Below, piece by piece: positions 58,237 through 59,976 of a DNA stretch of 64,000 bases. Both the position numbers and the translations under genes were made by a program. Position 1 is the first letter of the stretch. Each line of letters opens with the position of its first letter. This stretch comes from Arthrobacter subterraneus (lineage in GTDB: Bacteria; Actinomycetota; Actinomycetes; Actinomycetales; Micrococcaceae). The DNA lies in NCBI RefSeq assembly GCF_900099735.1, contig NZ_FNDT01000011.1, positions 1 to 64,000 of the forward strand, written 5' to 3'. The notes below the pieces were generated by a model. It saw only the letters and a program-made list of their open reading frames with translations, was not told where the DNA came from and did no database searches.

Positions 58237-58716
58237 ATGCCAGCCCAGCCTGCCCCTGCACAGCGCGATCATGCCGCGTGGATGGAGCTGGCGCTGCAGG
58301 CTGCCCAGCGGGCAGGTGAGACGGCAGACGTGCCGATCGGCGCCGTCGTCGTCGGTCCTCACGGCGAGGTGCTCGGCACCGGCTGGAATGAACGTGAGGC
58401 CACCGGAGATCCCACCGCGCATGCGGAGGTGCTCGCGCTCCGGCGGGCTGCGGCGGCATTGGGGTCCTGGCGGCTGGACGGCTGCACCCTGGTGGTGACG
58501 CTTGAGCCGTGTTCGATGTGCGCGGGCGCCAGTGTGCTCGCTCGTATTCCCCGCGTGGTCTTCGGGGCTTGGGATGAGAAGGCGGGGGCCGCCGGTTCCG
58601 TGTTCGACGTTCTGCGCGAACGCCGGCTGAACCACTGGACCGAAGTGTTCCCCGGGGTTCTTGAGGACGAGTGCGCTGCGCTGTTGCGGGATTTCTTCGC
58701 GGAGCGCAGGGCCTGA
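58237..58716 (+). CDS. tadA: tRNA(adenosine-34) deaminase
   Basis: Zinc deaminase converting A34 to inosine in tRNA-Arg(ACG), which is itself encoded at 54.1 kb. It has 159 residues from ATG 58237. The zinc site is His62 with catalytic Glu64 in TAHAEVLAL, plus Cys92 and Cys95 in EPCSMC. DVPIGAVVV and ARIPRVVFGAWDEKAGA are typical TadA. A 30-residue extension upstream would overlap upp and is rejected; TATCAT lies 6 nt before the chosen ATG. Confidence 0.94.
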   Translation: MPAQPAPAQRDHAAWMELALQAAQRAGETADVPIGAVVVGPHGEVLGTGWNEREATGDPTAHAEVLALRRAAAALGSWRLDGCTLVVTLEPCSMCAGASVLARIPRVVFGAWDEKAGAAGSVFDVLRERRLNHWTEVFPGVLEDECAALLRDFFAERRA

Positions 58717-58765
58717 CCCCTGGTTCCGGAGGCAGGATGCCGCATGGGGTGCACTTGAGGCATGT

Positions 58766-58834
58766 GCCCACCGAGTTGCGGGACTCAGTGGGAAGACGCT
58801 GTGCGAGCCCACCAGGTCAGCCGTCTCCTTGGGC
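58766..58834. repeat. Paired 28-nt imperfect palindromes, left flank of DUF559 gene
   Basis: Unit L1 at 58766-58793 (GCCCACCGAGTTGC... ACTCAGTGGG; arms CCCACCGAGT/ACTCAGTGGG pair at 9 of 10) and a more degenerate unit L2 at 58807-58834. The starts are 41 nt apart. L2 overlaps the last codons of the DUF559 gene. The same unit pair occurs on the other side of the gene (59746-59814), also 41 nt apart. Confidence 0.6.
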
Positions 58835-59629
58835 TAAATTGGTGAGACATTCTGCCACGAGTTCGAGGAACTTGTCGGGGCTGTGCACGAGCAACGGGTA
58901 AGTGACCCGCAGGACGGAGATTCCCCTGACCGTGTATACGTTCCAGCGCCGCCGATCCTCCTCGAAGTCGGTCCGGGCACTGTGATATTCCTTTCCGTCA
59001 ACTTCGATACCGAGAACCCCGTCGACCATGAGGTCAAGCCGCCCGGCACCCGGAACAAAGACCTGCGACTGGGTGATGTATCCGACGCGGCGCAGGTGAT
59101 ACCGAGAGACAGTCTCGACGATGGACTGCGCATGCGGATCAATCATCCTCACAATGCGCCGCAGGGACTTGTCACGCTGCCCGCCCAGGTTCTCAAGGAG
59201 GAAGCTTTGGCGGATGAGTCCCTTCACAACTGCCGACTCGACAATGCATAGGGCGTCAAGTTCGGGAAGGCAGCGCAGACACTGGATACAGATTTCCAGC
59301 ATGCCGGGCTTTCCAGCCGCGCGGTGCACCCGGAAATGATCGCCAAGAGGGCGTCCGTGGTCCGTGCTCACGTGGACGCGTCCAGGCTGGCGCAGCACCC
59401 AGAGACCGCGAGCCTCCGCAGCGCTGATGCATGCCAGATGCGCTCTCGCTGTGCATGCAGCGAGGATGGCGGGGTCGGCGTCGGGAAGGGCGAGGACCCC
59501 TCGCACGGGAACGGAGACCGCACCGAAAGCTACGGCCTTGCGCAGTTTCGATTCGCGTACGCCAGCAGCCAGAAGGTCCTTCCGCCGCGCTGCTCCGCCG
59601 AGCGTAGTCAGCGCTTCCTTCACATCCAT
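58817..59629 (-). CDS. AbiEi-like / DUF559 endonuclease-like protein
   Basis: A 270-residue two-domain protein. The N-terminal part (about 1-60, GGAARRKDLLAAGVRESKLRKAV... PVRGVLALPD) resembles the AbiEi-type antitoxin/winged-helix domain. The C-terminal part (about 170-260) matches DUF559, a Vsr/PD-(D/E)XK-like fold: LDLMVDGVLGIEVDGKEYH, DRRRWNVYTVRGISVLRVTY. Such proteins are common and multicopy in Micrococcales; their role is unproven (mismatch endonuclease-like or part of an abortive-infection system). No toxin gene is next to it. Flanked on both sides by paired palindromic repeats. Confidence 0.82.
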   Translation of the reverse strand: MDVKEALTTLGGAARRKDLLAAGVRESKLRKAVAFGAVSVPVRGVLALPDADPAILAACTARAHLACISAAEARGLWVLRQPGRVHVSTDHGRPLGDHFRVHRAAGKPGMLEICIQCLRCLPELDALCIVESAVVKGLIRQSFLLENLGGQRDKSLRRIVRMIDPHAQSIVETVSRYHLRRVGYITQSQVFVPGAGRLDLMVDGVLGIEVDGKEYHSARTDFEEDRRRWNVYTVRGISVLRVTYPLLVHSPDKFLELVAECLTNLAQGDG

Positions 59630-59745
59630 GGGGAGAGTGTGTCGCGACAGGAATGTGGATGGAGCTCGCAGTGGGCTGAATGTGGATAAATGGCGGACGT
59701 TTGGACTGCTCTGCAGGAGAAGTGCTGCGCGGCCTCGTCACCGCT

Positions 59746-59814
59746 GCCCGCCGGGTCGCTCGACTCTGTGGGCTGACGCAGCGCAGGCCCACCAGGTTGC
59801 CCAACTCAGCGGGC
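59746..59814. repeat. Paired 28-nt imperfect palindromes, right flank of DUF559 gene
   Basis: Units R1 (59746-59773) and R2 (59787-59814), both starting GCCC and ending GGGC, 21 of 28 identical to each other, starts 41 nt apart. R2 and left unit L1 match at 21 of 27. The 13-nt spacers of the left and right pairs match at 8 of 13 (core GACGC). The rest of 59630-59886 holds no supported gene. Confidence 0.6.
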
Positions 59815-59886
59815 ACCCGTGGTCCGTCAGGGTACAGGCTGCCCGTTTTGGGCGTGCGGTACCTCAGCCGGTAAAGTGGCACCGTT

Positions 59887-59976
59887 GGTGACGTGTCCGA
59901 GCGGCCGAAGGTGCAACACTCGAAATGTTGTTTGGTGTAAAAGCCAACGTGGGTTCAAATCCCACCGTCACCGCCA
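59887..59976 (+). tRNA. tRNA-Ser (anticodon CGA)
   Basis: An 87-nt class II tRNA plus an encoded CCA. Acceptor GGTGACG pairs with CGTCACC, anticodon loop CTCGAAA between CAACA/TGTTG, a long variable arm and T-arm GTGGGTTCAAATCCCAC. Anticodon CGA reads TCG (Ser). Together with 36.3 and 48.0 kb this gives three Ser isoacceptors in one window. Confidence 0.97.

Follow-up and report, generated by a model that had tools for sequence, protein, structure and literature searches.

In many actinobacteria, small genes of nuclease type are bracketed by palindromes that match the gene, and together they look like an undescribed mobile repeat system. We think it probable that this system, whose unit is a palindromic element, a nuclease gene and a second palindromic element, is a mobile repeat system like that of the REP/REPIN elements and their RAYT proteins, with an unrelated enzyme. 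Gene and palindrome are associated, they co-segregate, and the unit is present in some genomes and absent from others at the same site. The locus under study lies in a stretch of 64,000 nt from Arthrobacter subterraneus (contig NZ_FNDT01000011.1), the whole of which is called the window here.

The locus in the window

The first-pass annotation had described an imperfect palindrome starting at 58766, 58807, 59746 and 59787, with a spacing of 41 nt inside each pair, and had the second unit overlapping the 3' end of the gene; all four units were found again, as were the spacing and the overlap (18 nt). The units form two pairs of 69 nt each (28 + 13 + 28), at 58766-58834 and 59746-59814, around the nuclease gene (Table 1), and 70-nt stretches of the left and right pairs are 71% identical. 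Nor do the units fall to chance similarity when the sequence is shuffled: the pair pattern has four matches in the window (two sites, on both strands) and none in 100 dinucleotide shuffles, and the score of one flank against the other, 23, was reached by 0 of 2000 shuffles and compares with a maximum of 20 among 1187 control intervals. A chance origin of the window repeats is ruled out by these shuffles and by a control with the reversed pattern. Taken by itself, the observation in the window is modest: the units are imperfect, and as single strands neither pair folds better than shuffled DNA (z -1.0 and +0.2).

Table 1. Features of the nuclease locus, in window coordinates
Feature	Position	Strand	Basis
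Left pair, unit L1 (palindrome)	58766..58793	.	unit search, shuffle test
Left pair, unit L2 (weak; overlaps the 3' end of the gene)	58807..58834	.	
Right pair, unit R1	59746..59773	.	unit search, shuffle test
Right pair, unit R2	59787..59814	.	unit search, shuffle test
AbiEi-type/Vsr-type (DUF559, MTES_1575) nuclease gene, 270 aa	58817..59629	-	ORF, profiles, fold
Nuclease domain, residues 169-267, Vsr/EDxHD fold	58829..59125	-	predicted structure, structural match
AbiEi-like part, residues 1-164 (winged helix and second domain)	59138..59629	-	structural match
TTATCCACATT box, about 60 nt 5' of the start codon, conserved in the family	59679..59689	-	
Left neighbour, presumably a tadA-like deaminase; stop codon 49 nt before L1	58240..58716	+	name taken by us from the translation
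Right neighbour, tRNA-Ser(cga)	59887..59976	+	

The repeat is not confined to this locus. With up to three mismatches, the single unit occurs 18 times in forward and 22 times in reverse orientation in the window genome, where the reversed pattern gives 7 and 8; this search, which assumes no spacer, yields the 41-nt spacing at four places. With the 13-nt spacer fixed, a genome-wide search finds seven pair sites and none for the control, and one further unit stands singly (C24:582295). The GACGC core that had been noted in the spacers is common to both window pairs and is absent from the other five. In the stretches that were fetched, these five lie away from any such nuclease gene: in the tRNA-Pro/purC interval, at what we take from the translations to be an aldehyde dehydrogenase gene, at a presumed GDPD-like gene, between convergent genes, and near a putative ABC transporter.

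The window genome has four members of the nuclease family, and recurrence of the window repeat beside the other three was not observed, with the exception of a degenerate pair (four mismatches to a looser pair pattern) that adjoins one paralogue, 54% identical, at a site between TetR and PaaZ genes. Across the genus, 3 of 38 genomes have the pair pattern itself, and across the taxonomic family 5 of 395 do, with the window's own genome counted. Because the exact pair is this rare, and because subfamilies own separate palindromes (see below), we rejected the window repeat as the sole target.

The encoded protein

The AlphaFold model of the window protein (pLDDT 91.2, pTM 0.86) agrees with the earlier reading of the gene as a Vsr-like nuclease with an antitoxin-type domain, in that its two parts match, as predicted structures, the Vsr/EDxHD fold and an AbiEi-type half. 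The best VIA match of residues 169-267 is the homing endonuclease I-Bth0305I (3r3p; Z 12.7, rmsd 2.4, 96 residues aligned), and further matches are NGO0050 (Z 12.2) and E. coli Vsr (Z 10.6 and 9.7), the Z of 10.6 to Vsr 1cw0 coming at an rmsd of 5.2. Residues 1-164 match the AbiEi antitoxin 6y8q with a Foldseek E of 2.5e-4 and a VIA Z of 7.3 over 160 residues, a Z that is middling by itself. Non-matches in Foldseek and VIA carried no evidential weight.

Against Pfam, the window protein falls just under the cut-off for MTES_1575 and is weakly similar to AbiEi_4. Among 42 homologues at E 0.01, AbiEi_4 is matched in 40, MTES_1575 in 37, AbiEi_3_N in 18 and DUF559 in 7; nothing besides these four families was matched at that threshold, and by this search the proteins are not Y1 HUH tyrosine transposases. 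E172 and E209 are invariant in the 42 homologues, and D199, D211 and H216 are nearly so; by comparison with the Vsr and EDxHD motifs these five residues are probably catalytic. The MTES_1575 domain is widespread: of 118 genomes sampled from the class, 84 have a match at E 0.001 and 39 have one above the curated cut-off, counts that take in long multi-domain proteins. PADLOC gave weak similarity to its AbiEi, Hhe and PDC-S37 models (E 0.0007-0.015).

Matching flanks around homologous genes

So that motifs need not be chosen by eye, the 350-nt flanks upstream and downstream of each homologous gene were compared with each other on either strand, and the threshold was the 99th percentile of 1187 equal intervals taken from other parts of those loci. 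Seventeen duplicate loci (L151-L162, L170, L172, L195-L197) were left out beforehand, and 2 of the remaining 88 were left out at edges. The flanks match at 53 of the 86 loci and fail to do so at 33; by identity class the matching loci are 16/28, 14/25 and 23/33, with L191 and L194, at 43.8%, counted in the group labelled '<40%'. At the same length, 67 of 85 loci score above all 20 shuffles of their own sequence (3 of 88 left out). Ordinary genes of the genus (tadA, TetR, purC) reach the level of the flank test in 3 of 86 cases, after 4 of 90 were left out as short or containing N. Terminators shared by coincidence are a disfavoured explanation: the flanks of these ordinary genes rarely match, and the element on the upstream side is external to the gene. 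The loci that fail have perhaps decayed, or have their elements farther out, as in L092, L094 and L096, which carry long degenerate palindrome arrays on both sides of the gene.

The pattern extends beyond the genus. Twenty loci were chosen by hand from the MTES_1575 survey as frames of the size of a single gene, with the start codons nearest 285 aa, and one (L299) was left out at an edge; the flanks match in 15 of the 19 others and fail in 4, against 2 of 242 controls. The 15 comprise 14 of the 17 loci from other families and one of the two from a different genus of the same family.

Closer to the window protein, a clade of 24 loci (50-57% identity, plus the window) has a CCCA..TGGG palindrome in 21; it is never more than 863 nt from the gene, and the rest of the stretch, which in most loci is 8.8 kb long, is free of it. 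Several of these loci have two units in head-to-head orientation about a palindromic centre such as TGTCTAGACA, and together they form one long hairpin. Elements of relatives fold well below their shuffles (z -6.9 for the pair of L088, -6.0 for L313 and -6.9 for L364), as do solo pairs (L029, -9.0; L030, -3.6); the row for L104 was left out of this test. Doublet palindromes able to form hairpins, of the REP/REPIN type, are found in relatives and in solo copies, whereas the two window pairs by themselves do not show this.

Correspondence of palindrome type and protein clade

Three clades, each lying on one side of a supported branch in a tree of 82 proteins, carry three different motifs. CCCA..TGGG occurs in 18 of the 25 loci of the close clade (7 are without the motif as defined), GGACATGYCC in all 32 loci of clade 2, on both sides of the gene in 29, and GGCGTGT..ACACGC in 17 of the 31 loci of the distant clade (14 without it as defined). 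Each motif is found in 0-2 loci of the clades to which it does not belong and in 0-3 of 305-407 control stretches. The motifs were chosen by eye from the very loci later counted, and hence the counts within the home clade are descriptive and the weight lies on the off-diagonal and control counts. The clades were cut by locus set and then checked against the tree, in which long branches (L211, L199, L203 and L102 among them) call for caution.

The length of the palindromic elements is roughly 56-105 nt. In the distant clade the element is about 100 nt long, with an inner hairpin that is common and outer inverted arms that vary with the genome: among 43 elements from seven genomes, arm likeness averages 12.7 within genomes and 9.7 between them, a difference reached in 0 of 1000 permutations (pairs inside the array of L253 were left out). 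L253 (G006) and L297 (G003) hold tandem arrays of GGCGTGT elements with a period of about 124-135 nt, and DUF559 has no matches in these two stretches.

A single genome, G405, repeats the pattern on a smaller scale. It has two paralogues, each bracketed by its own type of element, and its 15 elements, with three clusters requested, fall into two families of seven and one singleton; each family of seven consists of the two flanks of one gene and five other elements. By the flank test, the clade motifs, the arms and this genome, the repeats flank the gene and are cognate to it, the 33 of 86 loci without matching flanks notwithstanding. One solo element of G405 was considered as a case of movement and gave no evidence for it: it is kept in place in G428 with one difference in 56 nt, in a 2.9-kb region that is 89% identical as a whole, and the region is rearranged in G462. 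A second repeat of about 85 nt (L354:2399-2487) has many copies in G405 and G428.

A conserved box upstream of the gene

In 75 of 88 genes of the family, the upstream flank contains a TTGTCCACATA-like box at a distance of 51-65 nt from the start codon; the other strand has it in 1 of the 88, and it occurs in 7 of the 1120 stretches used as controls. Its consensus before the start codons of homologues is TT(G/T/A)T(C/G)CACATA, which we liken to a DnaA box, and such a box could tie expression of the gene to replication. The TTGTCCACATA box as a -35 element was dropped, a conserved -10 not having been found.

Dispersed copies, occupied sites and empty sites

Elements are also dispersed away from the genes. 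The inner hairpin pattern (GGCGTGT, one mismatch) exceeds its reversed control in 35 of the 38 genomes of the genus and equals it in three (G009, G024, G034). When eight genomes were searched with a pattern taken from another family, four of them had 15, 16, 12 and 14 copies, with none for the control; a fifth genome of that family (G478) has zero copies, as have three genomes from elsewhere.

The interval between TetR and PaaZ was compared in 30 loci: it holds a cassette in 14 (in 4 of which the stretch ends before PaaZ is reached), 12 are empty and 4 have some other arrangement. The gene is inverted in 3 of the 14 cassettes, and the empty intervals are gaps of 37-229 nt that contain no gene. 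Copies of the close clade stand away from this interval in five genomes (G015, G018, G024, G029, G034).

Solo elements show similar variation. Among 30 genomes, the 300 nt before the end of purC contain CCCA..TGGG units in 4 (G018, G027, G029 and that of the window), hairpins of GGCGTGT type in 5 (G004, G006, G007, G020, G022) and neither type in 21. The tRNA-Pro/purC interval (L380-L409) is thus a hotspot, with two element types in 9 of 30 genomes. In six relatives this interval is short and the solo element is missing, and inspection by eye finds a terminator-like inverted repeat alone.

The first-pass annotation had asked whether empty sites exist in relatives; a clean one for the window cassette was not found among the 15 of 29 relatives' tadA loci that were read. 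In 12 of these 15, the interval from tadA to tRNA-Ser holds a gene of another kind, of about 160 aa, presumably a pyridoxamine-oxidase-like stress protein, and in the remaining 3 another gene follows tadA. The gene of about 160 aa is missing from this interval (58716-59887) in the window genome. The site between tadA and tRNA-Ser looks non-ancestral for the window cassette, and its junctions cannot be placed. At the TetR-PaaZ and tRNA-Pro/purC sites, occupied and empty states are found, with neither a junction nor a target-site duplication defined. The comparison with REP elements and RAYT genes in the first-pass annotation, and its suggestions that the repeats are the boundary of a mobile cassette or a target, gain support from comparative genomics, that is, from the flanks, the clade motifs, the dispersal and the presence or absence of the unit.

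What else the elements could be

AbiEi antitoxins use inverted repeats to repress their own promoters, and the elements could be binding sites of a regulator at its own gene and a few others, the nuclease half being incidental. The N-terminal half does match AbiEi and one element is upstream of the gene; moreover, AbiEi and Rv2827c bind 23-bp inverted repeats at promoters, those of Rv2827c lying 13 bp apart inside a pair, in the results given in PMC7319586 for these proteins. We nevertheless consider this explanation unlikely, since the elements are on both sides of the gene, with the downstream one in several loci at the stop codon or within 10 nt of it, and since one solo pair of the window genome lies between convergent 3' ends and another between tRNA-Pro and the 3' end of purC. 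The conservation of E172, E209, D199, D211 and H216 in the 42 homologues, the variation of occupied sites among relatives and the existence of a separate conserved box about 60 nt upstream likewise speak against it.

Somewhat less likely still is a selfish gene akin to a homing endonuclease gene, whose nuclease would cut solo elements or allelic empty sites and whose cassette would be copied by recombination between elements, the elements themselves spreading in some other way. The dimer target of I-Bth0305I, the best VIA match (Z 12.7), is nearly 60 bp (PMC3943268) and so near the length of an element. Cassettes that are present or absent at one site (TetR-PaaZ) would also agree with homing. 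However, homing genes usually interrupt their target, and here both sides of the gene keep a whole element. A scan of the 12 empty TetR-PaaZ intervals for the three motif types found none of them, and so a pre-existing target of these types is not seen there.

It is quite improbable that the elements are terminator-like repeats spread by something else, among which the gene happens to sit or is shuffled by recombination. Palindrome type tracks the protein clade and, in one genome, the paralogue, and ordinary genes rarely show such flanks (3/86); these observations outweigh, in our view, the position of one solo element of the window genome within a hairpin just after tRNA-Pro (z -9.0) and the presence of elements of two types in the tRNA-Pro/purC interval of 9 of 30 genomes. 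The least credible explanation, a defence gene whose flanking repeats are marks of recognition or exemption, could appeal to the weak PADLOC similarity to the AbiEi, Hhe and PDC-S37 models, but a partner toxin or methylase was not seen beside the window gene in the ORF list, read by eye, and the dispersed chromosomal elements would be left unexplained.

A possible mechanism

For the mobile unit of palindrome, nuclease gene and palindrome that we prefer, we infer binding, cutting and movement. The AbiEi-like half would bind, as a dimer, the inverted arms of its own element, and the Vsr/EDxHD-type half would nick or cut at the element, perhaps at the replication fork, where the palindrome may be single-stranded or extruded. 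The cassette, or a lone element, may then be copied into other intergenic places by repair or rejoining. Double-strand cuts at a dozen chromosomal sites would be toxic, and we therefore assume nicking or conditional activity. The window copy would be an aged cassette between tadA and tRNA-Ser, off the usual TetR-PaaZ site of the family, where the window genome keeps a second copy.

A broader proposal, for and against which we see the balance as even, is that these loci belong to a large unnamed class of actinobacterial mobile elements, in which an AbiEi/Vsr nuclease moves its own hairpin-ended cassette along with non-autonomous palindromes, subfamily and palindrome coevolve, and movement is possibly timed to replication through the DnaA-box-like site. 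If true, an independent enzyme would follow the same genomic logic as the RAYTs, which implies that systems of gene plus palindrome arose more than once. It would also give a testable role to a common and so far unexplained gene family, that of the MTES_1575 domain, and would account for lineage-specific sets of intergenic palindromes in actinobacteria.

Comparison with known systems

The likeness to REP/REPIN elements and RAYTs lies in short extragenic palindromes, in inverted doublets around a short spacer, in the family-specific pairing of gene and repeat, and in copies dispersed away from the gene, as these features are set out in the relevant parts of PMC3116915. Two REP super-families, GTAG and CGTC, are named for tags at one end of the palindrome in the portion of PMC3733652 that describes them. 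Here, in contrast, the gene encodes an AbiEi-type/Vsr-type nuclease in place of a Y1 HUH tyrosine transposase. Since the enzyme is no RAYT, the system falls outside the REPIN/RAYT family. To our knowledge, REP elements have been tied so far to one enzyme family only, the HUH-type RAYTs. REPs often number hundreds of copies, whereas copy number is low in the genomes counted here (7 pairs, and 12-16).

The window protein has its nuclease fold in common with I-Bth0305I (EDxHD) and Vsr, and differs from them in its AbiEi-type DNA-binding half and in the whole palindrome on each side of the gene. Residues 1-164 share the fold of the AbiEi/Rv2827c antitoxins, which are known to bind paired inverted repeats, as stated in the abovementioned results of PMC7319586. 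In the window protein, unlike these antitoxins, a nuclease domain follows, and an AbiEii toxin gene is not seen adjoining in the ORF list of the window. The nuclease half belongs by sequence to the MTES_1575_REase family (Vsr REase fold), and the family member treated in the corresponding part of PMC3710099 is residues 1810-1990 of a much larger protein, fused to HEPN and other domains, whereas here the gene is a stand-alone one of 270 aa between palindromes. In the journal papers searched, a transposase role for the combination of AbiEi-type and Vsr-type parts was not reported, nor was a published tie of DUF559 or Vsr to palindromic, transposable or repeat elements found. The arrangement of a gene with its repeats is already known; the enzyme is new to it.
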